A DNA stretch of 32,005 nt from Actinomycetota bacterium (lineage in GTDB: Bacteria; Actinomycetota; Actinomycetes; Streptosporangiales; Streptosporangiaceae), in contig DAHUZQ010000145.1 of assembly GCA_027306495.1 (NCBI GenBank), forward strand, positions 1 to 32,005. The letters are read 5' to 3'. Below the pieces are notes generated by a model that saw only the letters and a program-made list of their open reading frames with translations, made no database searches and was not told the DNA's origin. The translations under genes and the position numbers were made by a program. Numbering within the stretch: position 1 is the stretch's first letter; the number at the start of each line of letters is the position of its first letter. Positions 2,013 through 27,955 of this stretch are shown piece by piece.

Positions 2013-3080
2013 ATGGGCACGGCAATGACACGAGGGGACGGTGACGGGCTGCTGCGTGCGGCAGCCCTGTTCGCAGACCAGGATCACGGTGGGGCCGGGT
2101 TCCTTGACCGTTTCGGGCAGGCGGTGCCGGCCGAACCGAGCCTGGCAGGTGCGGCACTTTCGGGCGCGCTCGCCGCCCGCGCGCGGGCGGGGGAAATCAG
2201 GATGTCGCTCGGCGTCGGCGAGCTCAGGCTCGCGGCCACTTCGGCCGGCGCCACTCTCATCGCATGCGCGCTGGCCGATCCCAGCGGGACAATGTCCGTC
2301 TGTGTGCGCTTGGTGGACGCCGGCTGCCAGCCGATCGCCGGGGCGTGCGTGCGGGTGAGCGACGGGGACCATGAGTTCGCCGTCGTCACCGATGGCGGCG
2401 GGGCTGCCGCGCTCCCCGCCGCGCCGAACTCCGCCGTGGGGGCCGGCCTGGTGATCAGGGTCGGCGCCCGCACGCCGACCGGGCCAGGCGCCCAGCCTCC
2501 GCTGGACGCGGCGGGGGTGCCGCGTGAGGCACCTGCCGTGGGGCGGATGATCGAACTGGCGCGCAGTTCCAGCCGTGATCGGTTCGAGCTGGCGGCAGCC
2601 GGCGGCGAAGGGACGGGCGGGGCAGCGGTTCCGGAGCCGATCGAGGTGCGCGGGGTGACGTTCCTGTGCCGGGAGCGCCGCCGCGGCTACGATCTGACCC
2701 TGCTGGTCGCGGGTCTCAGCGTGGGATCAGGTGATTCAGCGGCCGGTGCCTTCGGGGTCACGTTCGTGACCAGAGGGCCGGATGACAGGCGCGAACGGTG
2801 GATCGTCCCGCTCGCCCTCAGCCCGCGCGGGCTCGCCGGCTCCCTGCACAGCACCTCGGCGCGGGTGCTGGAGGAAGAGAGTGTGGACGTCCGGGGAGCC
2901 CGCCAGTTGCTGGCCTCACTCAGCGGTGAGCTCGGGGACGGGGACGCCTTCAATGAGACGGTGCGCCGCAGTATCCGCCATGCCGACGAGGGGACGGCGT
3001 GGACTGGGCTGAGCCGCAGGCTGGCGCTCGGTCATGCCCGGGAACTTGTCGAGTCCACTCTCGCTGAAACCCGCCCCTGA
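2013..3080 (+). CDS. Hypothetical protein with Ig/carboxypeptidase-regulatory-like segment
   Basis: 355 residues. ATG 2013 is fixed by AAGGAG at 2001-2006; earlier in-frame ATG codons run into the preceding gene. Residues about 90-150 (VRLVDAGCQPIAGACVRV and the following TDGGGAAALP stretch) have the look of a carboxypeptidase regulatory-like or similar beta-sandwich domain, with the pattern V-x-L-x-D-x2-G-x-P-I-x-G-A-x-V followed by a T-D-G-x-G turn. The second half, starting near EVRGVTFLCRERR, appears alpha/beta without a known motif. There is no signal peptide or membrane segment. Its TGA overlaps the next start as TGATG, so translation of the two is probably coupled. It is most likely a partner of the downstream protease-NTPase; its exact job is unknown. 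Confidence 0.75.
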   Translation: MGTAMTRGDGDGLLRAAALFADQDHGGAGFLDRFGQAVPAEPSLAGAALSGALAARARAGEIRMSLGVGELRLAATSAGATLIACALADPSGTMSVCVRLVDAGCQPIAGACVRVSDGDHEFAVVTDGGGAAALPAAPNSAVGAGLVIRVGARTPTGPGAQPPLDAAGVPREAPAVGRMIELARSSSRDRFELAAAGGEGTGGAAVPEPIEVRGVTFLCRERRRGYDLTLLVAGLSVGSGDSAAGAFGVTFVTRGPDDRRERWIVPLALSPRGLAGSLHSTSARVLEEESVDVRGARQLLASLSGELGDGDAFNETVRRSIRHADEGTAWTGLSRRLALGHARELVESTLAETRP

Positions 3081-5989
3081 TGAGGTCCGGGTCCCTCCTC
3101 TACTACGACCCGGACGGCTGGTCCCACGACCCGCACCAATGGTGGGCTCCGCTCACCGATCTGGCCGCCGGATCCGATGTCGCCTCCCGAGACTGGCGGC
3201 GTGTGCTCGGGGTGGAGGAGTTCTTCGATAAGGGCTTGCTCGGGCAGACCCAGGTCCTGACCTCCTGGGTGTGCCTGGTGGCGGCGGCTGCCGCCGCCAG
3301 TGCCGCCCGGGCGTGGGCCCGCGGTACGGCCGGCGCCCGGGTACCCCGTGGCGGTGCGGACCATGCCGCGACGGTGCGTACCGGTGCGGGTGCCGGGACT
3401 GCGGGTGCCGGGACTGCGAATGCCGGGACTGCGAATGCTGGCACCGTGGGCGCCACTACGCGCGCCGTGGGTGGCACATCTGACGCGGCGATCCTGGCGG
3501 TGGGGGCGCTGGAGATGGCGGCGGCTCTACAGCAGTTGCGCTGGCAGGGCCGCCGTGTCGGGGAGGGCCTGATCTCGACACGTGTGCTGGTGGAACTCGG
3601 CCGGGCGGCGCTGAAGTCCGCGGGCTTTCCCGGCCGGGTCCACGGGCGCAGCCCAGCCGCGCTGTGGCTGCTCGCCGGGTGGCTGGCCCACTGCGGTAGC
3701 GAACCCCCGGCCCCCATCACGACCGGCGGAATGCTCCGTGATGACGGCCCGGTCACGGCCCGGCAGGCTGTGGCGCGAGCAGCGCAGGCGGCATTCCAGC
3801 GCTGGGGGCACACCAGCGCGCTGGACTGGGGCACCGCGCACCTGGTGGAGCGCCTGGTGGTCGGCGTTATCGACGATCCCGGGCCGGGTGCCACGCCGGG
3901 TGCCCCCGCGCAGGCCTGGGCCAACGTCCTCCTCGCGGCAGGCGGTCACCAGCCGGGCTCCGGCGAGGTCGGCGCTTTTGAGGCCAGGCGGCAGCGCTCT
4001 TCGCTCGTTCTGCCGCCGGGGCTGCCCGTGCCCGATCTTGCCCGGCTGGCGTTCCTGCATGCCGATGAGGAATTCGCTGGCTCCATCGCCGACGCGTTGC
4101 ATGCCGCCTGCCGTGTCCGGGCACCCGCCGGGTCCGCCGAACTCGTCAGCTGGGCGGTCCAGTTGCGGCTCACCGGGTATCCACTGGCGGAGCGAGTGGT
4201 GACGGGCCCGTCGGCGAGCCTGGGGGCCTATGTCGCGTTCCGGTCGCTGGCTGAGCCCGGCGCCAGCGCCGACGACTCGGTCGCGTTCACCGGCCAGGTG
4301 CTCGCGGACGGATCGCTTCGTGCGGTCGGGGGTGCCAGCGGGAAGATCGCCGCGGCGCGGGACAGGCGGATCAGAGTCGTCGTCCATCCGCGTGGCATGG
4401 CCTGGCGGGACCCGCGCGGCCGGTTGAATCTGGTGAGCGCGGGAACCGCGGAAGATGCCGTGCACGCCGCCGCGGCGGGGTCGGCCAGCCTGCGGATGTA
4501 CCTGGAGGCCGCTCGCCGTCTCATCGCCCCCGAGCCCTGGCTGCAAGCCTGGCTCGACAGCAAAGGGCCGCAGGGCGCCCAGATGCCCCTGCTGGACGTG
4601 ACGGCCCGGCATGTGCGGGGTCACCAGTCCAAGCCGCCGGCGCATGCTGACGGGAAGAGCCCGGGCGTGCTGGCCCGTCAGCAAACGGGCGCGTCCGGCT
4701 CCCAGCCGGCTGGCCCGGCTCACCGTGAGCCAGAGGTGGCCGCCTGCCCGGCACATCTGCTCGCCAGGTCGTACCCCGACTACTCGTTCGTGATCAGCGC
4801 TGGCGGAGGGTGCGGGAAGACGATAGCTGCTAAGCGGATCGTCGCGGACGCGGCCGGTCAGGCACTGGACGCGCTGAACCCGCGGCCCGGTCATCACCCC
4901 GGCACCGTCACGATCCCGCTCTACCTGGCGCTGGGTGAACTGCCGGCGAACTGGGATGAGCTTGTCCGGGCCAGTGTCGCAGCCCTGCCTCAGATCAACG
5001 GCAGCCACCTGGAGATCGGGGCAGCGCTCACAGCCGCGTTCACCGGTGCGACGTCCCTGTGCTGCCGGCCACTGGTCGTGGTCGACGGTACGCACTGGAC
5101 CCGTTCCGATGAAAATCTCGACCGCCACAAGGTGCGCGAACTCGTGGCGCTGGTGGCGGCCAACCCCGGCAGCAAGCGCGGTGCGGGCTGGTGGCCCGAA
5201 CGGGCCAGCCAGGTGGTGCTGTGCGGCCGCAGCGAGAGCCGCCGTCACCAGCGGGCAGCCGAGGCGCTGCGGCGGGAGCGGCCGGGCTGGATGGTCACCA
5301 TGGGGCTTGACCCGTTGAGCGATTCCGAAATCGACCGCTTCGTCACTTCCCTATCCGGCCGCGAGGTGCCGGCCGCCAGCCGGCCCTGGTCGCTGGTTTC
5401 GAACCCGCTGCTGCTGGCCCTGAGCGTGGTCGCCGGCGGAGCGGCGATCGACTCCGACCCGGCTGACGTCTTCGACCGTGGCATCAACGTCCTGCTGGAC
5501 GGGAACGACGTGCACCGCGGTGCCCTGGCCGAGATAGCCTTCCGGGCCGCGTCGGCCAGGCTCGCACCTGTGGGTGACTTCACTCTCACCGACATCGCAG
5601 CGCCTGCGGCCCGCGACGTCGTCGCCGACGCACTTGCGCACGGTGACACGCTCCGGGCGTGGGCGATGGCCCTGGACCACGACGAGCGCGACGCATTCGA
5701 GCATGCCGAGCGGGCGACCCATCTGCTGAGCGCGGCCGGCCGTGGCTGGCGATTCTTCCACGACCGCGCCTTCGCGTTCCTGGTCGCCGACCGGATCGCG
5801 CGCCGCGCCCTGACCGAGCCGAGCGCTGCCGATGAGCTGTTTGGGACGCTCGCGCCGCACCTCGGCCACCCGCTGTGGGCTGACACGCTCGAGGCAACGG
5901 GCCGGTTGCTGGAACTGCGCGCCCGCATGGGCCGGGCCGGAGGGCCAGTGGAGTCGGCGAGCGGGGGGGACCCGGCGGAACCTGGGTGA
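3080..5989 (+). CDS. Lon-like protease domain fused to NACHT/STAND-type NTPase
   Basis: 969 residues. An N-terminal region with an Ala-rich hydrophobic stretch (about 58-80, possible membrane segment) and an AGTAN repeat (about 104-122) leads to a Lon-type S16-like domain at about 365-460. GPSA at 376-379 supplies the expected catalytic Ser378. GGASGK at 417-422 supplies Lys422, 44 residues later, against 43 between Ser679 and Lys722 in E. coli Lon. VAFTGQVLADG lies between them as in Lon. A linker follows, then an NTPase: Walker A AGGGCGKT at 574-581, Walker B-like PLVVVDG at 664-670, sensor-like VVLCGRSES at 712-720, PLSDSEIDRFV and NPLLLALSVV, the run expected of NACHT modules. This is not a Lon protease, because the AAA+ module of Lon is missing and the domain order is reversed. 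It is probably an NTP-switched protease. The domain calls come from motifs, not from a profile search. Confidence 0.8.
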   Translation: MRSGSLLYYDPDGWSHDPHQWWAPLTDLAAGSDVASRDWRRVLGVEEFFDKGLLGQTQVLTSWVCLVAAAAAASAARAWARGTAGARVPRGGADHAATVRTGAGAGTAGAGTANAGTANAGTVGATTRAVGGTSDAAILAVGALEMAAALQQLRWQGRRVGEGLISTRVLVELGRAALKSAGFPGRVHGRSPAALWLLAGWLAHCGSEPPAPITTGGMLRDDGPVTARQAVARAAQAAFQRWGHTSALDWGTAHLVERLVVGVIDDPGPGATPGAPAQAWANVLLAAGGHQPGSGEVGAFEARRQRSSLVLPPGLPVPDLARLAFLHADEEFAGSIADALHAACRVRAPAGSAELVSWAVQLRLTGYPLAERVVTGPSASLGAYVAFRSLAEPGASADDSVAFTGQVLADGSLRAVGGASGKIAAARDRRIRVVVHPRGMAWRDPRGRLNLVSAGTAEDAVHAAAAGSASLRMYLEAARRLIAPEPWLQAWLDSKGPQGAQMPLLDVTARHVRGHQSKPPAHADGKSPGVLARQQTGASGSQPAGPAHREPEVAACPAHLLARSYPDYSFVISAGGGCGKTIAAKRIVADAAGQALDALNPRPGHHPGTVTIPLYLALGELPANWDELVRASVAALPQINGSHLEIGAALTAAFTGATSLCCRPLVVVDGTHWTRSDENLDRHKVRELVALVAANPGSKRGAGWWPERASQVVLCGRSESRRHQRAAEALRRERPGWMVTMGLDPLSDSEIDRFVTSLSGREVPAASRPWSLVSNPLLLALSVVAGGAAIDSDPADVFDRGINVLLDGNDVHRGALAEIAFRAASARLAPVGDFTLTDIAAPAARDVVADALAHGDTLRAWAMALDHDERDAFEHAERATHLLSAAGRGWRFFHDRAFAFLVADRIARRALTEPSAADELFGTLAPHLGHPLWADTLEATGRLLELRARMGRAGGPVESASGGDPAEPG
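3391..3448 (+). repeat. 15-bp in-frame tandem repeat
   Basis: Three near-exact copies and one degraded copy of a 15-bp unit (TGCCGGGACTGCGGG type) encode repeated AGTAG or AGTAN in the linker after the hydrophobic stretch of the protease-NTPase. The repeat keeps the frame, so copy number could vary between strains without inactivating the gene. Confidence 0.75.
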
Positions 5990-6040: not shown

Positions 6041-8164
6041 TCAGAGGTCCAGCAGGGCGGCGCGCGCCACTTCCGCCCAGCCCTCGCCGGCGTCGCCGTT
6101 CAGCCATCGCCGCGCGCCGTCGGTGATCAGTTCCCGGAAGCCGGCACCGTCGTCTTCCGGAAACTCGGCGGCCACCTCCAGGACCACCTTGGCCGCCGCC
6201 ATGGCGCGCACCCCGGCCGCGACCCTGGCCGCGTAGCCAGGCGGCCATTCCAGCGCGACCGCCAGCGGCCAGCGCACTATGGGCGCGGCGGCCATCCAGC
6301 GGATGAGTTCTGCGGCGGCTTCGGCCGGCACGGTACGCCCGTTCAGGAACCGGGTGAGCGCCCCCGGATCACTGGTCCCGGCGTCGAGAAGCCGCCGGGT
6401 GCCCTCGGTGACGAGGCTGTCCGGCAGGTCCCGTCCCTCGAGCACCAGTAGGGCGCTCCATACCACCAGCGGATCGTCGTGACCCAGCAGGGAAATCACC
6501 CGGGTGACGAGATCACCGGGCAGATCCCTGCCGTGGAACAGCCTGAGCGTCCGGCGGACGGTCGGCGCACTCCCGTCCTCAAGGATGCGGCCGATCTCCC
6601 GCAGCGTGACACCGGCCATATGCCAGGCCTTGAGCACGGGACTGGGAATGTGAGCGGATTCCCGCCGCTCAAGCAGTTCGATCACGCGACCGACGATGAT
6701 CGCGGGAGGGTGGAGCCACCGGAACACCGACCGGGCGTGGCCGGCGACGACGGGATCCTCGTGCCCCAGCAACCGCCCCGCCCGGGGGCGGAACTCGGCG
6801 GGAATGTGGTCCGGCGCGGTGTCGGGGGCTGGGAGGGTGGCTGCCGGGTGGGCGCGCCGCAGCAGCCGCAGGATGCGCGAGAACTCCTCTTCGGGCAGGT
6901 CCCAGCCTTCCAGCACGGTCACAGCGCTCACCGTGACCATCGGATCCTCATGACCCAGCATGTCCACGACCTTGGACAGCAGTTCAGCGGACAGTCGCCG
7001 CCCTTCCAGGACGCCAAGCGCGCTCTCGATGATCGACGGCATGGCGTGCCCGAGCAGTCCGGCTACCCGGGAGAGGAGATCTTCGGAGAGATCCTGTCCT
7101 CGCAGGAACTCCAGCGTCCCCCAGACGATCAGCGGGTCCGTGCTGGCGAGGTGGCCGACAACGATGTCCAGCAGGCGGCCCGGCAGGTCACGCCCCTCCA
7201 GCAGGGACAGCGCGTTCCATACCACTGCGGGGTCAGGGTGGTCCAGCAGCCCGGCGATCTTCTCCAGCAGGTCTTCCGGCAGGTCCCGGCCACCGAGAAT
7301 GGCAACGGCGCCTGCCACCGCGAATGGGTTTGCGTGGTCGAGCAGCCCGGCGATCTTCTCCAGCAGGTCCTCGGGCAGGTCCCGGGTTTCGAGTATCAGG
7401 CGTGCTCGCGCGCAGATCGACGGGTTTGCGTGGTCGAGCAGCCCGGCGATGTTCTCCAGCAGTTCCGGCGGCAGATCCCGGCCGCCCAGGAACGCCGTGG
7501 CGCTGGCGGTGATCGATTTGTCGCCGTGCGCGAGCAGCCGCACCACATCGGCGATCAGGCCCGCGGGCAGATCTCGTCCCTCCAGCACCCGCAGCGCTCC
7601 CTCCACCACCTCCGGCCGCGGGTGCTCCAGCAGGCCGACCACCTTGGCGAGCACGGGTCCGGGAAGTGCCCGCTCCGCCGCGCGCGGGCGGGCTGAGTCC
7701 GCTCCTCTCAGCTGTCTCAGCGACCCCAGGCCGGCCAGGGCATCGGTGACTGCCCCCGGATCCTGGTCGTCCAGCAGCAGCAGGTAGCGCCGCGAGACCT
7801 CCTCATCGTCAAGGTGATGGGCGAGTGCGGCGCAGGCTGGTTCGCGCAGGGCCGGACTGCGCAGAGCCAGTTGCAGGGCTGGCGAACGCGGCCGCAGGCG
7901 GGCGATGGCGAGTGCCAACTCGGCCCGTTTGCCGTCGAATGCGGCCATCGCGATGGCGAGTTCGTCGTGCAGCATGTCTGCCAGGTCCGGTGGTGGATCC
8001 CGCAGCGCTGCCAGCACGCCGGCGACCGAGGCGAGCAACCCGAGATCCGGGTGGCCCGCCGCATACCGGTAAAGCCACCACACATACCGGTCGGCGGGCG
8101 GAAGCGCGTCCACCGGCCAATCCTCGCCGGATATTGCGCCATTGGCTAGCCATTGGCCTGTCAT
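6041..8164 (-). CDS. HEAT-like repeat protein with exact 32-residue periodicity
   Basis: 707 residues from ATG 8164; the open frame extends further upstream, but an earlier start would run into the preceding gene. Residues about 194-424 hold eight copies of a 32-residue unit of the type LEGRDLP-x2-LL-x2-IAGLLDH-x-P. The GRDLP-type turns fall at 194, 226, 258, 290, 322, 354, 386 and 418 without a single insertion. Two further copies with the same spacing lie near 543 and 575. This fits a HEAT/armadillo-like solenoid used for protein or nucleic-acid binding. The N-terminal 150 residues are helical, with a WWLYRYAAGHPD segment. There are no catalytic motifs. It is the last of three minus-strand genes and faces the protease-NTPase gene across a 51-bp gap. 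A role as a recognition or scaffold subunit of that system is inference. Confidence 0.8.
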   Translation of the reverse strand: MTGQWLANGAISGEDWPVDALPPADRYVWWLYRYAAGHPDLGLLASVAGVLAALRDPPPDLADMLHDELAIAMAAFDGKRAELALAIARLRPRSPALQLALRSPALREPACAALAHHLDDEEVSRRYLLLLDDQDPGAVTDALAGLGSLRQLRGADSARPRAAERALPGPVLAKVVGLLEHPRPEVVEGALRVLEGRDLPAGLIADVVRLLAHGDKSITASATAFLGGRDLPPELLENIAGLLDHANPSICARARLILETRDLPEDLLEKIAGLLDHANPFAVAGAVAILGGRDLPEDLLEKIAGLLDHPDPAVVWNALSLLEGRDLPGRLLDIVVGHLASTDPLIVWGTLEFLRGQDLSEDLLSRVAGLLGHAMPSIIESALGVLEGRRLSAELLSKVVDMLGHEDPMVTVSAVTVLEGWDLPEEEFSRILRLLRRAHPAATLPAPDTAPDHIPAEFRPRAGRLLGHEDPVVAGHARSVFRWLHPPAIIVGRVIELLERRESAHIPSPVLKAWHMAGVTLREIGRILEDGSAPTVRRTLRLFHGRDLPGDLVTRVISLLGHDDPLVVWSALLVLEGRDLPDSLVTEGTRRLLDAGTSDPGALTRFLNGRTVPAEAAAELIRWMAAAPIVRWPLAVALEWPPGYAARVAAGVRAMAAAKVVLEVAAEFPEDDGAGFRELITDGARRWLNGDAGEGWAEVARAALLDL
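6877..7585 (-). repeat. 96-bp coding repeats
   Basis: Eight consecutive 96-bp units underlie the 32-residue protein repeats. On the plus strand the core AGCAGCCCGGCGATCTTCTC recurs almost unchanged at about 7245 and 7341, with a one-base variant at about 7437. The central copies are much closer to each other in DNA than the outer ones, which suggests recent duplication or gene conversion within the gene. Confidence 0.8.
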
Positions 8165-8237
8165 GGCCGAATTGCCCTGAAACCCATAGCCCCGGAACGT
8201 CCGGTGTGCCCGCCGGCCGGCCGTCACAGCCCCATCA

Positions 8238-9380
8238 TCACAACGGATTGACGACCACGAACGCCTGGCCGTAAGCAGGGCCGACGCTGCCGAGGCCACC
8301 ACCCGGATCGGTCATTTCGTTTCCATAGCCCGCGGCGAACAGCCGGCTGGTGGCCACACCGTGCGCCATGAGGAAGGCGCGAACGGCTCCCGCCCGCCGC
8401 CAGGACAGCAGGCTCTCGCGGCCGAGCGGGCCGGACCGGTCGCCGAAGGCGAGGATGCTGACCTGCGCCCGCGGATCCGTGGCGGTGAGTGTGGCGGCCA
8501 AACTGGCCAGCAGCGCCCTCGATCCCGGCTGGAGACGTGCCTCGCCCGGCCTGAACCGGAGGCTGGCCGGCGCGGGCCCGGTGTGCCCGGCCAGCGCTTG
8601 CCGGACCACCGGGGCCAGTCCGGCTGCCGCACCCGCGACCAGGATCACGGCCCGGGCCGCACCTGCCCGCAGCAGGGCCGCCTGCCATTCCAGTTCCTCG
8701 GCGCGGTCACCCCGGACTCCGGCGATGACGACCGTGATGCCCGCCAGGCTCGCTGGCCCGGCCCGCAGTGCTTCGTCCGAGAGCAGCCGGGTCGCGAAGA
8801 GCACGATCACCCGGCGTGTCCCGAGATCATTCCCTGCCTGCTGAAGGCTCGTGAAGAAGGCGGTCGCGGCCGAAAGATCGGGCCGCGGGCTCGCAGCGGA
8901 CCCGGCCCCGGGAACCGCCCGGGAGAGGCCGGGGATGAGTGATGAGGACCACGCATGCATGAGCCCGGCAAGCTTCCGGGCCAGGACCTGGCGATCACCG
9001 GCGATCTGGATCCGGTAACCGGTGAGGCGGTGCTGGTAGGTGAGCTTCTCGAAGTGGGTGGTCTGCCCTGCTGGCTGGATGGGGCCGGCGGGGGCCGTCA
9101 TGGCGGGCGGTGGAGGCGACACCGAGGCCGCGAGCACCTTCCCGCCCGCCGCCAGGTCGACGACCTCCACGTGTTCCCGGGGACGCGCGGAGGCGGCGGC
9201 GAGGGCTTCGATCGCCGGCAGATCGTGACGGGCCTGGCTGGTCTCGATGACCAGGGCCGCGGATGTGCCAGGCCCGGCAGTCAGCCGGCGCGGATCCCCG
9301 CCGCCAGCGGCGGCGCAACCGGCGGCGGCCACCGCCAGGGTGGCGACCGGCGCCAGCACCTTCATTGCCCTGCTGTTCAT
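8238..9380 (-). CDS. Putative lipoprotein with C-terminal OmpA-like domain
   Basis: 380 residues from ATG 9380, with AGGGG about 8 bases upstream; an earlier in-frame start at 9419 is less well placed. A short signal peptide (MKVLAPVATLAVAAAGC) ends in a lipobox with Cys22 as the lipidation site, so the protein should be anchored outside the membrane. Residues about 45-270 are alpha/beta (ALVIETS, RVIVLFATRLLS, GITVVIAG) and may be a degenerate vWA-like fold, although no complete metal-binding motif is visible. The last 110 residues match the OmpA/peptidoglycan-associated pattern: F-x-P-G then L-x-P-x-S, SILAFGDRSGPLG, LSWRRAGAVRAFL and GYGNEM. It lies between the membrane protein and the repeat protein genes. 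It probably links the membrane and the cell wall. Confidence 0.75.
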   Translation of the reverse strand: MNSRAMKVLAPVATLAVAAAGCAAAGGGDPRRLTAGPGTSAALVIETSQARHDLPAIEALAAASARPREHVEVVDLAAGGKVLAASVSPPPPAMTAPAGPIQPAGQTTHFEKLTYQHRLTGYRIQIAGDRQVLARKLAGLMHAWSSSLIPGLSRAVPGAGSAASPRPDLSAATAFFTSLQQAGNDLGTRRVIVLFATRLLSDEALRAGPASLAGITVVIAGVRGDRAEELEWQAALLRAGAARAVILVAGAAAGLAPVVRQALAGHTGPAPASLRFRPGEARLQPGSRALLASLAATLTATDPRAQVSILAFGDRSGPLGRESLLSWRRAGAVRAFLMAHGVATSRLFAAGYGNEMTDPGGGLGSVGPAYGQAFVVVNPL

Positions 9381-9512
9381 CGTGCACCCCTGGGGGGATC
9401 GGTCCTGCTTCATCGACACCGGTAGGGACAGATCGCCCCCGGCTCCGCGAACCGTGGGCGGCGGACAGCCGGCGGCCGCGCCTGGAAAACTGGCACGCGC
9501 CGCCGGCCAGCG

Positions 9513-9536: not shown

Positions 9537-10397
9537 TCAGCCCATGAGCAGCACGGCGATCGCCCTGCTGCTCGCCGCCAGGAACTCCTCATGTGCGATG
9601 CCGGCGGGCGGGTGAGAGATCGCCCAGGCCATGACGGTGTCTTCGAGAGCTGCCCGGGACAAGCCGGCCCTGGTGCGGGCTGCCGAGGCTGCGTCCTGCG
9701 TGTCGGCCCGGGCGGCACGGCGCGCGGCGCGGTCGGCGCTCGCCACAGCCTTCGGCCTGCGGTGCGACAGGAGCACGAAGCCGACCGCCACGAGGGCGGC
9801 CGACATGCCGGTCAGGGCCAGCGCGCCAAGGGCAGCCGACGGCATCCCCTCGTAGCCGGTGACCTGCAGGTAGTCCAGCCGCAGGGCGAAGATGGTGACG
9901 AATCCGGCACCGAGCAGGGCAACCAGGAGCCAGAAGGTCACCCGGCGGCCCTTGGTGGCGAACAGGTCGAGCAGCCACATCTGCCCGCCCAGCGCGGCGC
10001 ACAGCAGGACGGTCAGGGCCAGCGTCGGGATCTGATCTAGCCCGAATGCCTCCGCTGTCCAGTACGCGGGCAGCACATCGAGCAGGGCCAGAGCGGTCGC
10101 GGCCGCGGTGGCAAACCGCCGGCCGAGCTGCCGGTGCGGGCTCGCCTTGTGACGCTCGGCGCTGGCTCGCGCGCGGGCCTCCGCCGCCTGTCGGCTGGCC
10201 TGCTCCGCCACTGCGGCTGCGAGGTCGGCCTGAGCCCGGTCGTTGCGTGCTTCCTGAAATTGGTCGAGGGCAAGCGGCGACTCCCGGAACAGCTCGCCGA
10301 TCGCGGCGATTGCGCTGGAAAGCAGCGACTGGCCCGGCTGGCTAGCGACCGGGGGCTGGCCGGCCTCGCCAGGGCCCAGAAGTGGGTGGATGGACAT
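9537..10397 (-). CDS. Four-helix membrane protein with coiled-coil N-terminus
   Basis: 286 residues from ATG 10397, supported by GGGAGG 9 bases upstream. The frame is open a further 340 bases upstream, but that part has unlikely composition and no ribosome binding site. Residues about 35-95 are rich in Ala, Glu, Arg and Gln (QADLAAAVAEQASRQAAEAR) and should form a coiled coil. Four hydrophobic segments follow: TAAATALALLDVLPAYWTA, LALTVLLCAALGGQMWLL, VTFWLLVALLGAGFVTIFAL and ALALTGMSAALVAVGFVLL. The tail is basic and Ala-rich, ending in a helical segment. The family is not recognised. Together with the neighbouring lipoprotein it gives the minus-strand set a membrane location. It may be a membrane platform or effector for the Lon-NACHT locus, which is inference from position. 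Confidence 0.7.
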   Translation of the reverse strand: MSIHPLLGPGEAGQPPVASQPGQSLLSSAIAAIGELFRESPLALDQFQEARNDRAQADLAAAVAEQASRQAAEARARASAERHKASPHRQLGRRFATAAATALALLDVLPAYWTAEAFGLDQIPTLALTVLLCAALGGQMWLLDLFATKGRRVTFWLLVALLGAGFVTIFALRLDYLQVTGYEGMPSAALGALALTGMSAALVAVGFVLLSHRRPKAVASADRAARRAARADTQDAASAARTRAGLSRAALEDTVMAWAISHPPAGIAHEEFLAASSRAIAVLLMG

Positions 10398-10766
10398 GAG
10401 AAAGCGCCTCCCTTCGCTCATGCCCGAGGTAGGGGGAGCGGAGAGAGCCCACCGCGCGACCGCGAGTGAATGGATGTGAACGGGGCGGCGCGAAACGGGC
10501 GGCAATATCGTGCGCGCGGTGCCCGCAGGCCGCAATTGCGTGACCCGGGGCTCGCTCCCGCCTGGTTCCGGGCGCGTTCCCCGCTGTGGTCCCGCCCCGG
10601 GGAAGTGCCGGGCCAGCCCCATCCGCGGGTGCGGGTTCGTGACCAATACCGCGCGGTGCCGGCCGATTGTAACGGCAGCGGGTGAATCGGCACTATCTGT
10701 ACGCAAGTGACATTCCATGTTAGCCTGACGGCACACCATGCCTTGGACGGTGGCGGCGGGAGGTTA
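10398..10766. other. Intergenic region between divergent genes
   Basis: This 369-bp gap separates the starts of the minus-strand membrane protein and the plus-strand GAF-like protein, so promoters for both must lie here. The stretch about 10665-10735 is more A+T-rich than its surroundings and is a plausible promoter area for the plus-strand gene. I see no clear operator, hairpin or small gene. Confidence 0.4.
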
Positions 10767-20935: not shown

Positions 20936-23900
20936 TCAGGGGCCTTCGCCGGCTTCCCAGGCGCGGCAGAGGGCGTTGGCCAGGTACATCTGGCGGGGGG
21001 TACGGCAGGCGACCCGCAGCAGGCCGGGGCTCGCGACGATGACGGCCATCGCCTTGGCGCGGGAGGTGGCCACGTTCAGCCGGTGCAGGTCGTACAGGAA
21101 CTCCAGGCCGCGCGGCGCCTCGTCGGCCGAGGAGGTGGCCATCGAGTAGATGGCCACGGGGGCCTCCTGCCCCTGGAACTTGTCGACGGTCCCGACGCGG
21201 ACCGCGGCGGCGCCGGCCTCGCCGGCCATCCGGAGGGCGTCTTCGATCTCCCGGATGTGCGCGTTGTAGGGGGTCACGACGAGGATCTCACCGGGGCCGA
21301 TCGGCTGTTCGTGGCCGTGCCGGTCACGCCACTGGCGGCCCAGCAGGCCGAGAACGAGCGCGGCCACCCGGCCCGCCTCTTCGGCCGAGGCGTTCGCGTT
21401 GTCCTCGTGCGGCACGGCGATGACGCGCAGCCCGGCGCCGCCCGGCGACATGTCGCCGGGCGTCACCTCGCCGAGGATCTGCTGGCGCTCAAGTCCGTCC
21501 ACCCCGGTCAACTGCCCGTCGTAGAAGACCTGCGAGGTGAAGTCGCGCAACCGCGGGTGCATCCGCCAGGTGGTGTCGAGGAGCAGCCCGGCCTCGGCGG
21601 GCATGGTCGCCCGGCCGCTCAGGATGTGCTCCAGCGGCGACACCCCCGCCCCGGGCGGATGCGCGGCCTGGCTGGGCTGGGCGAGTTGCTGCGGGTCCCC
21701 GAGCAGGATCAGGTTCCGGGCCGCACCGGCCACCGCCAGTACGTTGGCCAGCGACAACTGGCCGGCCTCATCGACGAACAGGGTGTCGACCCCTCCCGCC
21801 ATCTCCGGGCGAGACCAGAGCCACACGGTGCCGGCGGCCACATCGAGTTCACCGTCGCGCAGCGCCCGCGCCAATGCCTCGTTGGACATTCCCTGGGCGT
21901 CCCGGTGCAGGTGAGGGTTGTCTTTGTCGGCGCGCTGGCCGATGCGGACCGTCATCCCGCAGTCCGCTGCCTGCTGGCGCACCATGGAGATGAAGTTGTG
22001 GATGACCGCGTGCGATGGGGCGGTGATCCCCACCGGGCGGCCCGCCCGGATCAGGGCCAGGATCTGCCGCGCCCCGTTGTAGGTCTTCCCCGTGCCCGGC
22101 GGTCCCTGGATCGGCAGGTAGGAGGCCTGCAACGCGACCGCGAGCCGGACCGCCGCATCACCCGCTGATTCCTCTTCCCGCCGCAACGATCTGGCCGGAA
22201 CGGCGCCTGCGGCAGGTGCAGGAGCACCCACGGCAGGAGGGGCGGCGCTGGCAGGAGGGGCGGCGTCAGCGGGCGCGGCGTGGGCCGGGGCAGCGGTGCC
22301 GGCAGCCGGGGGCAGACCGACGGCCGGCGGAAGCCGCTGCAGCAGCGCGGTCGCGGCGTCCGCGCCGGAAACGCCCTCCCGCACGACCCGCTCTCCCAGG
22401 TCACGGAGCCGTTCCCGGAGCTCGCGGGTCCCGGGCGGTGGTTCGGGGATCAGCGCGGCCGGAAGTGGGTTCGGGTTGCTCTTGCCCACCTTGAGCCTGA
22501 TCGTGCCGCGCTCGTCATCCAGGTCACAGATCGTCCAGGTCTTCCCGGTGACGGGATCGACGCCGCGATCGTTCCCGGAGAAGCGGTGCTCCTGGGGCGG
22601 GAACCCAAATTCGCGGATGACCGACTGCTTCTCCTCACCGACGATCTCGCCGCCGGTCAAGCCGCCGAGCGCGTCCGGTTCGCCGGCCAGGTCATCGCCG
22701 CTCAGCGTGCACAGGTAGAAGTACCGCCACCAGGCCGGCTTGGCTTCCCGGCGGTGCCAGTCCAGCAGATCGGCGAGCAGCGCCTTGGCCCTGTGCTCAT
22801 CGGTGCGCTCCGCCGGGTCTACCGGAATGCCCGTGAGCAGTGCCGCCCGGATCCGGGTGACCTCTGGGTCCTCTTGCGTGTCGGTCTCTGCCGCGACGGC
22901 TGGCCGGGGCAGGTCTTCACCGAGCCGACCGGGCAGTTCAGCCCGGCGTTCCTCCAGCCAGTCGCGCAGGGCCAGGGTGGCCCGGCAGTCGTCCTCGTTG
23001 TAGGCCGCGATGACCCGTTGCTCGCCGTCGGTGTCCGTTGCGGCCCGGTCCCCGTCCTCCAGGGCGGCCTCGAACGCGATCAGGTTGCGGGTCGCCTCCC
23101 GCAGGTCCATGAGCCGGGCGTAGCCGCACAGCGGCTCCAGTCGCTTGATCGAGTAGCTCTCCACCCCGGCGCGCAGCCCCTGCCGGACGACCCGGTAGAG
23201 GTCGACGAACACGCCGAGCCGGAACAGGTCGTCCACCTCGTCCTCGCGGGTGGCGTACCGGCCCATCAGGCGGCCGACGGCTTCGGCCCGGGTCTCGTGG
23301 AGTTCGGTGAGATGGTCCACCGAGGTCGGCTCGTAGTGGTTGTAGTGGTAGACGTGCAGGCGGGGGTTGCGCTTGCGGCGGTCGGTGATGAAGTCGATCA
23401 GTTCCTCGAACGCGCGCTTTTCGCCCCGGCGGCCGAACGAATCACGCTGGCGGTCGCACGACCAGATCTGGGTGTACCGAGGTAGGCCGGCCTCATCGGT
23501 TTCCGCCGTGTCCACGACGCCGAACAGGTACTGCAGGCCGAATTCCTGGCCGTCTTCGCTGTAGTAGCGGGCGCCCTCGATGTCGAAGAACAGGTCACCG
23601 GGGGTGGGTTCGGGAAGAGCGAGCAGTCCGCGGTTGGGGATCAGTTCGCCGAGGTCGTTCCGTTCAGGATCCAAAATCTCGTAACGGATCGCACCATCAT
23701 CCTCGCTGGCGATTTGCAACCGGGCCTGCAACCGGGCGCGCTGGAGAGATTCCCCGCCTGCCCGGCTCACGGCCGGCAATTCGCCGAGGGCCGCGAACCC
23801 GCGCCGGGTGCTGACGCCGGCGGCTTTCAGCGCCTTCCGCTGTCCCTTCGTGATCCCCGCGATCAGTGACAGGTCGTCATCGCTTCGGCGCCGCGCAGCG

Positions 23901-24664
23901 CACAACCCGCTCCACCGGCAGATGGCGCAGTGCTCGACCGGGTCCGGGTAGGGATCGGTGGGCGGATTCTCGCCCGGATCGCCCGCGATGAAAGCGGTCA
24001 GCGAGCGCCGGGCCTGCCGTTCATAGGCTGCATAGTCGTCAACCTTGAAAGGCTTGCGCTCGCCGTTGCCCAGCGCCAGGTGCATCCAGCGTGGGGAGAC
24101 GCCCTGCACACCGGCGAGCAGATGCGAATAGAACGCGGTCTGCGCCACCGCCCGCGCCTTCGCTGACCGTGCCAGCTTCGCATCGACGACTTCGTAATGA
24201 ACGGCTGCCGGGCGCGGTTCACCGTCCGGTGCGGGCAGCAGGTCGGCGCGGATGAGGAAGTCGGGCCGGCCCAGCAGGGCGGGCCGGTCTATCGCGTGTT
24301 CGTCCCGGGCGTGTTCGTCCCCGGCGGGCGGGGTCTGCGCGGGCTGATGGAGCAGTACGCCCTGGTAGATGATCTCGGCGCCGGACCGCATGGCGTCCAG
24401 CGTGGCGCTCGCGGCCTCTGCCTCCGCCCCGGGAGCGGAGGAGATCCCGGTGATCTGGAGCCCGTCCTTGCTGAACTCATCGAGGATCTGCTGCTCGTGG
24501 GCGATCCCGCGCCTGACCAGTTCCTCGAAGCCGAGGTCGAAGGTTTCGGGAGGCTGGAGTTGGTGGCGCGCCTTCAGCAGGTCCAGCCGGGTCAGGTGCC
24601 GGCAGGCGAGGAAGTTCGCGACGTCGCTCGCCGACAGCCGAAGCCGGCCATCACTGATCTGCAC
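20936..24664 (-). CDS. TM0106-type RecB-like nuclease / RNase H-like / UPF1-type helicase fusion
   Basis: 1242 residues from GTG 24664 (GGGAG 8 bases upstream); ATG 24700 would add 12 residues. The N-terminal PD-(D/E)xK nuclease shows GRPDFLIR and YEVVDAK at about 156-162. Cys21 together with CAICRWSGLC near 242-253 gives the four cysteines of a Cas4/AddB-like Fe-S site. An RNase H-like domain starts with GDLFFDIEGARYY near 355 and ends with EDDCRATLAL. A Pro/Ala-rich linker near 790-830 leads to a superfamily 1 helicase: GPPGTGKT near 855, LFVDEAGQL near 958, LILLGDPQQLAQ, TVDKFQGQE and RLNVATSRAK near 1193. The whole is the TM0106-family architecture joined to a Dna2/UPF1-like motor. It likely processes DNA or RNA ends in repair or defence. 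It diverges from another nuclease-helicase gene. Confidence 0.88.
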   Translation of the reverse strand: MQISDGRLRLSASDVANFLACRHLTRLDLLKARHQLQPPETFDLGFEELVRRGIAHEQQILDEFSKDGLQITGISSAPGAEAEAASATLDAMRSGAEIIYQGVLLHQPAQTPPAGDEHARDEHAIDRPALLGRPDFLIRADLLPAPDGEPRPAAVHYEVVDAKLARSAKARAVAQTAFYSHLLAGVQGVSPRWMHLALGNGERKPFKVDDYAAYERQARRSLTAFIAGDPGENPPTDPYPDPVEHCAICRWSGLCAARRRSDDDLSLIAGITKGQRKALKAAGVSTRRGFAALGELPAVSRAGGESLQRARLQARLQIASEDDGAIRYEILDPERNDLGELIPNRGLLALPEPTPGDLFFDIEGARYYSEDGQEFGLQYLFGVVDTAETDEAGLPRYTQIWSCDRQRDSFGRRGEKRAFEELIDFITDRRKRNPRLHVYHYNHYEPTSVDHLTELHETRAEAVGRLMGRYATREDEVDDLFRLGVFVDLYRVVRQGLRAGVESYSIKRLEPLCGYARLMDLREATRNLIAFEAALEDGDRAATDTDGEQRVIAAYNEDDCRATLALRDWLEERRAELPGRLGEDLPRPAVAAETDTQEDPEVTRIRAALLTGIPVDPAERTDEHRAKALLADLLDWHRREAKPAWWRYFYLCTLSGDDLAGEPDALGGLTGGEIVGEEKQSVIREFGFPPQEHRFSGNDRGVDPVTGKTWTICDLDDERGTIRLKVGKSNPNPLPAALIPEPPPGTRELRERLRDLGERVVREGVSGADAATALLQRLPPAVGLPPAAGTAAPAHAAPADAAPPASAAPPAVGAPAPAAGAVPARSLRREEESAGDAAVRLAVALQASYLPIQGPPGTGKTYNGARQILALIRAGRPVGITAPSHAVIHNFISMVRQQAADCGMTVRIGQRADKDNPHLHRDAQGMSNEALARALRDGELDVAAGTVWLWSRPEMAGGVDTLFVDEAGQLSLANVLAVAGAARNLILLGDPQQLAQPSQAAHPPGAGVSPLEHILSGRATMPAEAGLLLDTTWRMHPRLRDFTSQVFYDGQLTGVDGLERQQILGEVTPGDMSPGGAGLRVIAVPHEDNANASAEEAGRVAALVLGLLGRQWRDRHGHEQPIGPGEILVVTPYNAHIREIEDALRMAGEAGAAAVRVGTVDKFQGQEAPVAIYSMATSSADEAPRGLEFLYDLHRLNVATSRAKAMAVIVASPGLLRVACRTPRQMYLANALCRAWEAGEGP

Positions 24665-24802
24665 GGACCTCTCCCAGTGAGTGTCATGGCGGCAAGCCAT
24701 CAGCCACCTACACCAGAAGCTATGCCAGGCGGCGGAGGTCGAGAGATCTGTTTGCGGCGGTATACGGTGTCAGGCGACTTGTTATCCGAAGGGGGAGCCG
24801 CA

Positions 24803-27800
24803 GTGGCCGAGAGTGATTCGCCGTTTCTGGCGGTCCCGGCCTCTGACTGGCTCGTATCGAACCGTTCTGCCTTTGCCATCGCGGACCGTTTCCCGGTCAG
24901 TCCCGGGCACACCCTGGTGGTGCCAAGGCGCCCGATCACGACCTGGTGGGGGGCTACCAGCGAGGAGCGGGCGGACATCCTCGCCCTGATCGACGAGGTC
25001 AAGCGCACGCTCGATGATGAGCGGCATCCGGACGGTTACAACGTCGGGTTCAACGCGGGTGAGGCTGCCGGGCAAACGGTCGGGCACTTCCATATTCATG
25101 TGATCCCGCGTTATCGCGGTGACGTCGCTGATCCGCGCGGCGGAGTGCGGCATGTCATTCCCGGTAAAGGCAATTACCTGCTCGCCGCCGACGGGCCGGC
25201 CGCGCTGGTCGACGGGCAGGATCGGTTGCTCCGGGACGAGTTGCTCCGTTGCCTGCGCGATCGGCGGTTCGACCACGTCGATCTGCTGGTCAGCTTCATC
25301 ATGAAGTCGGGACTCGAACTGGTCCATGGTGGGCTGGGCGACGCACTGGACCGGGGGGCCAAGGTCAGGGTGCTGACCACGGACTACCTGACGGTCACTG
25401 ACGCGGACGCCCTGGCCCGGCTACTGGACCTCGCCGAACTGCGGCCGGACTCGGTGGCCACGCGTGTCTTCCACGACCCGGCCACGAGTTTCCACCCGAA
25501 GGCCTACCTCTTCTCGTCCGCGGACGGCTCTGCTGCGGTGGCGTTCGTGGGCAGCAACAACCTCAGCGCGTCGGGTATCGCGGGGGGCATTGAGTGGGCG
25601 ATCGGCGCCGACCGGGTCGCGCCGCTGCTGACCGCCTTCGAGCGGTTGTGGGACGACGCTCGCAGTCAGCCCCTCTCCCATGAACTGCTGGCTGATTACC
25701 GTCAGCGGTGGCGGCGGGCTGTCCGGGGCGGGGGTCCCGGCGGTGAGGTGCCCACAGCCCCGGTGGCGGGTGTGGTGGCGGAACCACAGGCGACTGCGCC
25801 CAGCCCCTGGCCTGTGCAGCGGGAGGCGCTGACAGCGCTCGAACACTCCCGGCAGGAAGGGTTCCGCAGGGGGCTGGTCGTCATGGCGACAGGGCTGGGC
25901 AAGACGTGGCTCGCCGCGTTCGACACCGCCCGGCCGCAGTTCCGGCGGGTGCTGTTCGTCGCTCATCGCGAGGAGATCCTGCGCCAGTCCCTGGACGTCT
26001 TCCGCCGGGTGCAGCCGGACGGGGACCTTGGCCTGTACTACGGACAGCAGAAGCAACCGGGTGCACGGGTGGTCTTCGCGAGTGTTGCGACCCTCGCCCG
26101 CAATCTGCACCGGTTCGCGGCCGATGAATTCGACTACCTGGTGGTGGATGAGTTCCATCACGCTGCCGCCCGCAGCTACCGCCAGGTGATCGATCACTTC
26201 CACCCGGCGTTCATGCTCGGGCTGACCGCCACACCCAACCGGATGGACGGCGCCGACCTGCTCGCGCTGTGCTCGGACAAGCTGGTCTACGAATGCCCGC
26301 TTACGGACGGCATCGAGCGCGGCGACCTCAGCCCGTTCCGGTATTTCGGGATCGCGGACGATGTCGACTACGCACCCATTCCCTGGCGTGGCGGGCGCTT
26401 CGACCCCGGCGCGCTGACGCAGGCTGTGGAGACGCAGGCGCGTGCCCGGCACGCGCTGGAGGTCTGGCGCGCGAAGGGGGGTGGCCGCACCCTCGGCTTC
26501 TGTGTCACCGTCAGCCACGCGGACTTCATGGCCGAGTTCTTTGGCCGGAACGGCGTCGCGGCTGTCGCTGTGCACAGCGGACCGTCCAGCGCCCCCCGTG
26601 CGGGCTCACTGGAGCGGCTGCGTGCCGGTGACCTGCAGGTCATTTTCACGGTCGACGTGTTCAACGAGGGCCTTGATGTCCCGGAAGCTGACTCGATACT
26701 CATGCTGCGGCCTACCGAGTCCCCGGTGGTGTTCCTGCAGCAGCTTGGCCGTGGCCTTCGCCGCAGCGAGGGCAAGACCGCCCTGACCGTGATCGACTTC
26801 ATCGGCAACCACCGCAGCTTCCTCATCAAGCCGCGCACCCTGCTCGCCCTGCGGGCTGATGGCCGGATCAGCACCGACAAGGTGCTCCGGGCTGTGCGGA
26901 CCGGCGACTTCGGCCTGCCACCCGGGTGTTCGGCCACCTACGACGTGGAGCTTGTGGACATTCTCCGCGGGGTCGCCAGGGTCGGCGGACGGTCGGCTCT
27001 GGAGGACTACTGCCGGTCCTACGCCGATGAGCGTGGTCGCCGGCCCACCGCGGTGCAGGCCTATGAAGCCGGGTACAACCCAGCGTCGGCCCATGGCACC
27101 TATGGTCACTGGTTCGCGTTCCTGGGCGACCTCGGCCTGCTGGCCGAGCAGGAGGGGGAGGTGCTGCGCCGCAACTGCGACGTGCTGGAGGGCATCGAAA
27201 AGGAGGCGATCACCAAGTCGTACAAGCTGGTGACCCTGCAGGCGCTGCTCCAGATGGGCGCACTGCGCACCGGAGCGGATATCGCGGAGATCGCCTGGAC
27301 CGCGCACCGGATCGTCACCGGTGATCCGCGCCTGCTGGCGGACACCCGTTCGGCTGAGATGCCCGATCCGTCGTCCGTGGGCGCCGACGCATGGCGGGAG
27401 TACTGGCTGAACTGGCCACTGGCCGCCTGGGCCGGGCGGCTGCGCGGTGCGTCGGCGGGCTGGTTCCGCATCGAGGGCCGGCGCTTCGTTCCCGCCTTCC
27501 GGGTGGCCGACGAGGTGGGCGAGGCGTTCGACACCATGGTCGGGGAACTCGTTGACTACCGGCTGGCCCGGTACCTGTTCGCGAAGGGAAATCGCGCGAG
27601 CCCGCTGGAGGCGGCGTTCCGGCTCAAGGTCATCCAGACCCACGGGCGTCCGATCCTCATGCTCGACCGCGCCCGCAACCCCGGCTTGCCCGAAGGTGAG
27701 GCGTCGTTCATCGCCGACGGCATCGTGTACTCGGGCAACTTCGCCAGGATCGCCCTGAACGTCGTGCACCGTCCGGGCCATCCGGGCAACCTGCTGCCCG

Positions 27801-27955
27801 ACCTGCTGCGGTCCTGGTTCGGGCCGGACGCGGGTCAGCCGGGCACGGCGCACCACGTCGCCCTGGTCCCCGGGAAGCCCCACTGGCAGATGCGGCCGAC
27901 GGCACCGGGAACCGCGAGCATTCGGGCGGCTCGCCACCTCGAATCGGGCCAGTGA
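24803..27955 (+). CDS. HIT / phospholipase-D nuclease / DEAH helicase / DUF3427-like fusion
   Basis: 1050 residues from GTG 24803, with GGGGGAG about 6 bases upstream; upstream in-frame ATGs lie inside the divergent gene and are rejected. Residues 10-115 are a HIT domain with HFHIHVIPR (His95, His97, His99), a nucleotide-phosphate hydrolase or transferase fold. Residues about 150-270 are a PLD-like nuclease half with SFHPKAYLF (His231, Lys233) and GSNNLSASG. A superfamily 2 helicase follows: ATGLGKTW with Lys367, VVDEFHH (Asp449-His452), LGLTATPNRMD and QQLGRGLRR near 646-654. The remaining 350 residues resemble DUF3427 in position and composition. PLD-helicase-DUF3427 proteins occur in many bacteria and are suspected of DNA repair or phage defence; the N-terminal HIT is a notable addition. 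A hairpin ends the gene. Confidence 0.88.
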   Translation: MAESDSPFLAVPASDWLVSNRSAFAIADRFPVSPGHTLVVPRRPITTWWGATSEERADILALIDEVKRTLDDERHPDGYNVGFNAGEAAGQTVGHFHIHVIPRYRGDVADPRGGVRHVIPGKGNYLLAADGPAALVDGQDRLLRDELLRCLRDRRFDHVDLLVSFIMKSGLELVHGGLGDALDRGAKVRVLTTDYLTVTDADALARLLDLAELRPDSVATRVFHDPATSFHPKAYLFSSADGSAAVAFVGSNNLSASGIAGGIEWAIGADRVAPLLTAFERLWDDARSQPLSHELLADYRQRWRRAVRGGGPGGEVPTAPVAGVVAEPQATAPSPWPVQREALTALEHSRQEGFRRGLVVMATGLGKTWLAAFDTARPQFRRVLFVAHREEILRQSLDVFRRVQPDGDLGLYYGQQKQPGARVVFASVATLARNLHRFAADEFDYLVVDEFHHAAARSYRQVIDHFHPAFMLGLTATPNRMDGADLLALCSDKLVYECPLTDGIERGDLSPFRYFGIADDVDYAPIPWRGGRFDPGALTQAVETQARARHALEVWRAKGGGRTLGFCVTVSHADFMAEFFGRNGVAAVAVHSGPSSAPRAGSLERLRAGDLQVIFTVDVFNEGLDVPEADSILMLRPTESPVVFLQQLGRGLRRSEGKTALTVIDFIGNHRSFLIKPRTLLALRADGRISTDKVLRAVRTGDFGLPPGCSATYDVELVDILRGVARVGGRSALEDYCRSYADERGRRPTAVQAYEAGYNPASAHGTYGHWFAFLGDLGLLAEQEGEVLRRNCDVLEGIEKEAITKSYKLVTLQALLQMGALRTGADIAEIAWTAHRIVTGDPRLLADTRSAEMPDPSSVGADAWREYWLNWPLAAWAGRLRGASAGWFRIEGRRFVPAFRVADEVGEAFDTMVGELVDYRLARYLFAKGNRASPLEAAFRLKVIQTHGRPILMLDRARNPGLPEGEASFIADGIVYSGNFARIALNVVHRPGHPGNLLPDLLRSWFGPDAGQPGTAHHVALVPGKPHWQMRPTAPGTASIRAARHLESGQ

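Follow-up and report, generated by a model that had tools for sequence, protein, structure and literature searches.

A predicted Lon-type Ser/Lys protease domain joined to a NACHT-like NTPase in an actinobacterial protein

Does one protein of an actinobacterial draft genome join a Lon-type protease to an NTPase of the NACHT/STAND type, and what might a protease do under such a switch? The gene in question, P0001, lies in a window (the whole stretch of DNA analyzed here) of 32,005 bases. The window is an entire contig, one among the 252 of a draft genome of 3.38 Mb that is 91% complete, and P0001 is present in a single copy in this genome.

Two domains in one reading frame

The gene and the parts of its product, all on the plus strand, are as follows.

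3080 to 5989, +: P0001, Lon-like protease-NACHT/STAND protein of 969 aa (open reading frame and translation)
3080 to 4030, +: N-terminal helical region, residues 1 to 317 (matchless in Pfam; helical model)
3385 to 3438: 15-base tandem repeat, Ala/Gly/Thr-rich, in the N-terminal region
4031 to 4489, +: Lon-like (S16) protease domain, residues 318 to 470 (PF05362, TIGR02903, hhalign, BLASTP, Foldseek)
4211 to 4213, +: codon of Ser378, predicted nucleophile, in GPSA (376 to 379); invariant in alignments of 24 and of 16 sequences
4343 to 4345, +: codon of Lys422, predicted general base, in GGASGK (417 to 422); invariant in the same two alignments
4490 to 4774, +: linker, residues 471 to 565, Ala/Gly/Pro/His-rich (sequence reading)
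4775 to 5794, +: NACHT-type STAND NTPase, residues about 566 to 905 (hhalign against 21 NACHTs, alignment, AlphaFold2)
4802 to 4822, +: Walker A, GGGCGKT, residues 575 to 581
5075 to 5098, +: Walker B, VVVDGTHW (VVVDG, residues 666 to 670), with DG kept and the acids of DGxDE replaced by His672-Trp673
5222 to 5239, +: sensor-1 motif CGRSES, residues 715 to 720, its Arg invariant throughout the NACHT set
5402 to 5422, +: GxP-type motif NPLLLAL, residues 775 to 781
5753 to 5788, +: winged-helix motif FFHDRAFAFLVA, residues 892 to 903, F-x-H...FLVA (NACHT consensus, F.H.....YLVA)

The frame runs for 969 uninterrupted codons with a steady GC content at the codon positions throughout, so P0001 does not represent two genes fused through a frameshift. 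A Pfam scan of residues 1 to 299 returned no match, and residues 150 to 317 were mostly helical in a low-confidence AlphaFold2 model. The equivalence of this N terminus to the N-terminal helical region of the relatives described below was rejected as unproven (P = 0.2). The protein has no separate transmembrane helix; its sole hydrophobic stretch (residues 772 to 790) is the NPLLLAL helix of the NACHT part.

An earlier note on this DNA had placed Ser378 and Lys422 at nearly the spacing of the Lon dyad. Measured by one procedure, the two residues are 44 positions apart in P0001, compared with 45 for SepM-type Lon and 43 for one full-length actinobacterial Lon, which bears out that claim, and they lie in the GPSxG...GGxxxK context of S16 peptidases. 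A match of the region around residues 360 to 465 to this family, on which the proposal depended, was also found. TIGR02903 matched with an E value of 1.6e-5 and PF05362 with one of 5.7e-4 (19.9 bits, slightly under its curated cutoff of 21.1), these curated Lon models covering residues 352 to 452. Moreover, hhalign aligned residues 374 to 466 with a profile of six actinobacterial SepM-type Lon proteins at P = 2.5e-9 (38% identity over 93 columns), compared to 0.027 for the best of 60 shuffles and 0.55 for the reversed sequence.

The AlphaFold2 model of residues 150 to 480 was, like that of the NACHT part, of moderate confidence (mean pLDDT of 58 and 59), with a pLDDT of 85 to 95 across most of the stretch from about residue 380 to 465 and low values N-terminal to it. 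The model of the Lon part resembled solved Lon proteolytic domains. All of the best 40 Foldseek matches were of this kind, and E. coli Lon (1rr9) matched at E = 4.7e-5 over about 160 columns (target-normalized TM of about 0.55); since SepM-type Lon sequences were in the alignment behind the model, these matches are support and not independent proof. The expected conservation in homologues held as well. When P0001 was aligned with 11 relatives, three SepM proteins, and one Lon, Ser378 and Lys422 were the only invariant columns of the 16-sequence set, and a separate 24-sequence alignment had three, namely, the Ser, the Lys, and one Ala. Over the second half of the domain, P0001 resembles canonical Lon and the relatives about equally. 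Judged by sequence and predicted fold, this is an S16-type domain, and we infer that it acts as a Ser378/Lys422 protease.

The motif run described earlier for the second half of the protein (GGGCGKT, VVVDG, CGRSES, and NPLLLAL) is present in full. Walker A, the sensor-1 Arg, the GxP-type motif, and the winged helix follow one another in the order seen in NACHT proteins. The acidic pair of the extended Walker B (DGxDE) is missing, as P0001 reads DGTHW at this place, and therefore the NTPase may bind nucleotide more than hydrolyze it. From these motifs, the module is NACHT-like, with hydrolysis possibly impaired.

Using hhalign, the segment from Walker A to NPLLLAL matched a profile of 21 actinobacterial NACHT proteins at P = 1.7e-8. 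True NACHT proteins, left out of the profile one by one, scored 4e-14 to 1e-29, the best of 60 shuffles 0.023, and the reversed sequence 0.7. Other NTPases gave 1.2e-4 and 0.0077 (the SF1 and SF2 helicases encoded in the window), 0.0053 (ComM AAA+), and 0.083 (true Lon AAA+). On the last of these values against 1.7e-8, an assignment of the P0001 NTPase to Lon AAA+ was ruled out. The reversed domain order that the earlier note had pointed out therefore stands: Lon carries its AAA+ motor N-terminal to the protease and SepM has a PDZ domain, whereas in P0001 a NACHT-like NTPase is C-terminal to the protease. Pfam scans of this part returned nothing, and PF05729 stayed below the cutoff in the genome search (E = 0.59). 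Thus, the profile searches supported a NACHT assignment by hhalign but not by the Pfam NACHT model, and an NTPase invisible to plain Pfam is best described as a divergent NACHT.

AlphaFold2 modeled this part as a P-loop core with a C-terminal beta-hairpin/helix. The top Foldseek matches of the model were ORC/Cdc6 AAA+ proteins, with Avs4, Avs5, and NB-ARC also among the matches; the model is too weak to tell STAND from other winged-helix AAA+ proteins, and the profile test was used for this reason. After the winged-helix motif, the protein continues for only about 66 residues without repeats, indicating that no C-terminal sensor repeats are fused to P0001. Among NACHT-like candidates from the same genome, the best-scoring one (L006) was rejected as Rho and another (L009) as a SARP-type regulator.

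Relatives of the Lon-like domain and their loci

A second Lon-NACHT fusion was sought with several queries. None was found with the whole of P0001 in 60 relatives or 108 class genomes, where the searches gave ordinary SepM-type Lon only, nor was one found in 81 order genomes queried with the NTPase half, in 395 class genomes queried with the Lon domain, or in 395 and 35 genomes queried with the family profile described below. None emerged from tblastn against plasmids and phages or from scanning genome and viral contigs for peptide patterns, a low-sensitivity method. Weak long-frame matches (L077, L079, L080 to L083, and L085 to L087) were read as ordinary Lon, SepM, ComM, or RadA, and 36 genomes from other genera of the same family had no orthologue of P0001. 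Across the actinobacterial genomes, plasmids, and phages searched, the fusion is known from a single contig of this draft genome.

The search of the 395 genomes with the Lon domain exposed a protein of 1189 residues (L078) with an architecture unlike that of P0001, to which BLASTP matched residues 318 to 461 at E = 2e-8. With a two-sequence profile, more members were found in the order of L078; a seven-sequence profile extended the family by two in the class, and a contig scan with a profile of five closer members added three relatives. The relatives total 11 (L097 to L102, L131, L132, and L138 to L140), and their hosts include Pseudofrankia asymbiotica, Frankia nepalensis (two), Frankia canadensis, Streptomyces sp. 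JJ38, Knoellia flava, and Pseudonocardia terrae. The search for homologues thus succeeded for the Lon-like domain, mostly in predicted conflict loci, but not for the Lon-NACHT architecture.

The seven-sequence profile separated members outside the model (E = 4e-27 and 2e-20) from canonical Lon (1e-9 or weaker), and a profile of the 11 relatives without P0001 recovered P0001 at E = 3.7e-9 across residues 318 to 464. Against the PDB, Lon proteases were the only matches of the family profile (best E = 1.1e-7), and one relative, L140, clears the PF05362 cutoff. P0001 and the relatives have in common a PDxxxxAFLxxDxxF segment before the Ser, which is unmatched in canonical Lon and at which P0001 scored E = 0.0016, better than 1000 shuffles. 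The Ser-Lys spacing of the relatives is 51 to 66, versus 44 in P0001, and the canonical GPS is changed to xGS in most family members.

In all 11 relatives, the Lon-like domain is followed by a hydrophobic segment (calculated for 8 and assigned by eye for 3) and a long propeller-like C terminus. WD40 repeats were supported by Pfam in L097, L099, L100, L132, and L140, weak in L101 and L131, and assigned by eye in L098, L102, L138, and L139. No NACHT was present in those relatives whose sequence was read. A separate observation concerns L084 (G447:C61:15000-20000), a putative lipoprotein of 659 aa in which a Lon-like Ser/Lys domain (DGPSAG and GGLPQK) without PDZ is followed by a long helical region.

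CATRA-N/CATRA-C-EAD1 and CATASP genes adjoin L097, L099, L100, and, at a distance of up to about 2 kb, L102; CATRA systems were reportedly described in a 2020 paper in J. Bacteriol. A CATASP gene without CATRA adjoins L098, L101 has an EAD8-trypsin neighbor, and L138 has a caspase gene nearby and possibly an alpha/beta-hydrolase upstream (a subthreshold match). These loci, with their CATASP, CATRA-EAD1, EAD8-trypsin, and caspase genes, are predicted to be conflict systems. The partner proteins encoded directly upstream in L138 and L140 carry a CATASP-type C-terminal domain (P = 3.9e-6 and 1.3e-5), which makes the partner gene a recurrent companion of the Lon-like domain. CATASP-like C-terminal domains beside the Lon-like-WD40 genes were significant in L138:5878-7548 and L140:6667-7566 and weak in L131:8809-10077(-) and L101:6769-8235. 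This pattern suggests that the loci share a partner domain outside the coverage of Pfam.

The genes next to P0001 are as follows.

17 to 1957, +: gene 1, 646 aa, about 55 bases upstream of gene 2
2013 to 3080, +: gene 2, 355 aa from the ATG at 2013, preceded by AAGGAG
6041 to 8302, -: convergent gene for a HEAT-repeat protein (HEAT_2, E = 1.2e-8), 51 bases from the stop of P0001

The layout is operon-like, with the TGA stop of gene 2 overlapping the ATG of P0001 by one base, and gene 2 resembles in position and layout the upstream partner genes of the relatives. The proposal that gene 2 encodes a CATASP-like partner was set aside as unproven (hhalign P = 0.02; score of 20.4, compared to 19.5 for the best of 100 shuffles). 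Genes 1 and 2 gave no Pfam match up to E = 10, and no CATRA-N/CATRA-C, CATASP, or EAD gene was found in the window by Pfam or at significance by hhalign. Upstream of gene 1 the contig soon ends, so a neighboring gene may be missing there. A 46-base tandem repeat (2.3 copies; 1 to 108) occupies the contig start; the contig may therefore end in a repeat, and upstream genes could be missing. The gene 1 protein has a zinc-ribbon-like CxxC/CxC stretch around residues 436 to 470. The HEAT-repeat gene contains near-identical repeat units of 96 bases (7180 to 7516), and upstream of it on the same strand lie genes for a putative lipoprotein with an OmpA domain (8238 to 9419; weak ZorB-like match) and a membrane protein (9537 to 10739). 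The HEAT-repeat protein might, speculatively, act as a sensor in trans for P0001.

A possible protease switch and its alternatives

Because its closest Lon-like relatives lie mostly in predicted conflict clusters, P0001 is probably a protease turned on under attack. Our preferred reading, to which we give a probability of roughly 60%, is that P0001 is a STAND-type conflict protein in which a Lon-type Ser/Lys protease serves as the effector and NACHT oligomerization as the switch. In the resting state, the NACHT module would keep the protein inactive. The trigger would be a signal from an invader or from damage, and sensing would fall to a partner protein, since no sensor repeats are fused to P0001; this partner could be encoded by gene 1 or gene 2, or by the convergent HEAT-repeat gene, a more speculative candidate. 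Upon this signal, the NACHT module would bind NTP and oligomerize, so that the Lon-like domains come together as a ring or an array and Ser378 and Lys422 become active there. The active protease would then cut a particular substrate, be it a partner effector, a regulator, or an essential protein, leading to defense or cell death. Lon proteolytic domains operate as rings assembled by the rest of the protein, and as Lon-type activity is naturally ring dependent, oligomerization and catalysis would be directly linked. The loss of the Walker B acids may result in slow or no hydrolysis and thus in a STAND switch that is long-lived in its active state or nucleotide locked. A role in phage defense is suggested by the neighborhoods of the relatives. 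Against this reading, the Lon domain of the relatives is joined to a membrane anchor and a propeller, and never to a NACHT in those read; the fusion is single, the Walker B acids are absent, and there is neither a sensor in cis nor a CATRA or EAD gene in the window.

P0001 could instead be a regulatory or housekeeping protease, active in development or stress rather than in defense and gated by its STAND ATPase. STAND NTPases also control transcription and development in actinobacteria, as exemplified by the SARP-type L009, and models of phage-defense proteins gave no match to P0001. In addition, LypABC, a CARD-NLR-like system with peptidase domains, has a use other than defense (PMC13236601). 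Yet the extreme sparsity of the gene, found in 0 of 36 same-family genomes of other genera, is unlike that of a housekeeping gene, and the loci of the relatives are predicted conflict loci. We therefore regard this explanation as rather unlikely.

It is also improbable that the Lon-like domain is a pseudoenzyme with a binding or scaffold role in regulation. This possibility is raised by RadA and ComM, textbook cases of Lon-like folds in nonproteolytic roles (Lon-like matches to both were observed here), and by the prevalence of xGS over the canonical GPS in the family. Furthermore, inactive peptidase domains are common at the effector position of vWA-MoxR systems (PMC7159879), and catalytically inactive caspase and trypsin domains have been described at that position in related conflict systems. 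A decayed domain, however, would not retain exactly the Ser and the Lys as the only invariant columns over a diverse set of 16 sequences, and the RadA- and ComM-type domains lack this pair. Finally, an assembly chimera or a decaying gene, as a single draft contig, lost Walker B acids, and a search without orthologues might suggest, is very hard to reconcile with one frame of 969 codons of steady codon-position GC, the AAGGAG before gene 2 and its one-base stop/start overlap with P0001, and an intact catalytic Ser, Lys, and Walker A.

Comparison with known systems

Our reading of P0001 as a NACHT-switched protease places it next to several known groups. Bacterial NACHT proteins are tripartite, with an effector, an oligomerizing NACHT, and a sensor (PMC12169576). 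P0001 shares with the anti-phage bNACHT/STAND proteins an effector on the N-terminal side of a NACHT that has a Walker A, a sensor Arg, a GxP-type motif, and a winged helix; unlike them, it has a Lon-type effector, lacks the Walker B acids and C-terminal sensor repeats, and is missed by the Pfam NACHT model. With Lon and the SepM (YlbL-type) S16 peptidases, it shares the Ser/Lys dyad, a TG motif, and the fold of the proteolytic domain. The Lon-TM-WD40 relatives have a homologous Lon-like domain, the PDxxxxAFLxxDxxF segment, the invariant Ser and Lys, and, in several loci, an upstream partner gene, but in place of the NACHT of P0001 they have a transmembrane helix and a propeller.

The earlier note had taken a protease switched on by NTP-dependent oligomerization to be new or little studied, and this claim of novelty has to be qualified. 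In CalpL, a SAVED-Lon protein of type III CRISPR systems, binding of cA4 leads to oligomerization and activates the N-terminal Lon domain (PMC11417357). CalpL and P0001 both combine an N-terminal Lon-type Ser/Lys protease with a module that oligomerizes, upon ligand binding in CalpL and, as proposed, with NTP in P0001. The switch is the cA4-binding SAVED domain in CalpL and a NACHT NTPase in P0001, and no SAVED domain or CRISPR protein was among the Pfam matches of the window. CalpL being already known as an immune Lon effector, the new element is the pairing of a Lon effector with a NACHT module and not the Lon effector itself. CARD-NLR/trypsin-STAND systems, LypABC included, likewise unite a serine peptidase with an NLR-like ATPase, within a single protein or a single system (PMC13236601), but their peptidase is trypsin-like and unrelated in fold and catalytic mechanism. 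As tested here, P0001 is a member of neither CalpL, whole Lon, nor the CATRA systems. The strongest claim to novelty lies with the larger Lon-like family, whose members occur in predicted conflict loci and of which P0001 is the once-seen NACHT-controlled version.

Nuclease, TIR, trypsin-like, and caspase-like effectors are known in bacterial NLR-like proteins. If our reading is true, a NACHT-switched Lon-type Ser/Lys protease adds a peptidase class to these effectors and parallels the activation of caspases by NLRs, as well as CalpL. More tentatively, and at slightly less than even odds, P0001 would be the first recognized example of a class of immune receptors whose Lon-type Ser/Lys protease is switched on by a NACHT/STAND module, with a Lon domain from an as yet unnamed pool shared with actinobacterial CATRA-type systems and with proteolysis coupling the sensing of an invader to regulated cell death. 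Two main papers on these actinobacterial conflict systems, one of them PMC7159879, make no mention of Lon or S16. Lon-like domains encoded next to CATRA, CATASP, EAD-trypsin, and caspase genes point to S16 peptidases as a recurring, if overlooked, component of such systems.

Farther along the window, the minus strand encodes a protein with RNase_H_2 and an SF1-type helicase (20936 to 24700) and the plus strand one with HIT, PLD, and a ResIII helicase (24197 to 27955). The overlap of about 500 bases between these two open reading frames is due to upstream start choices.
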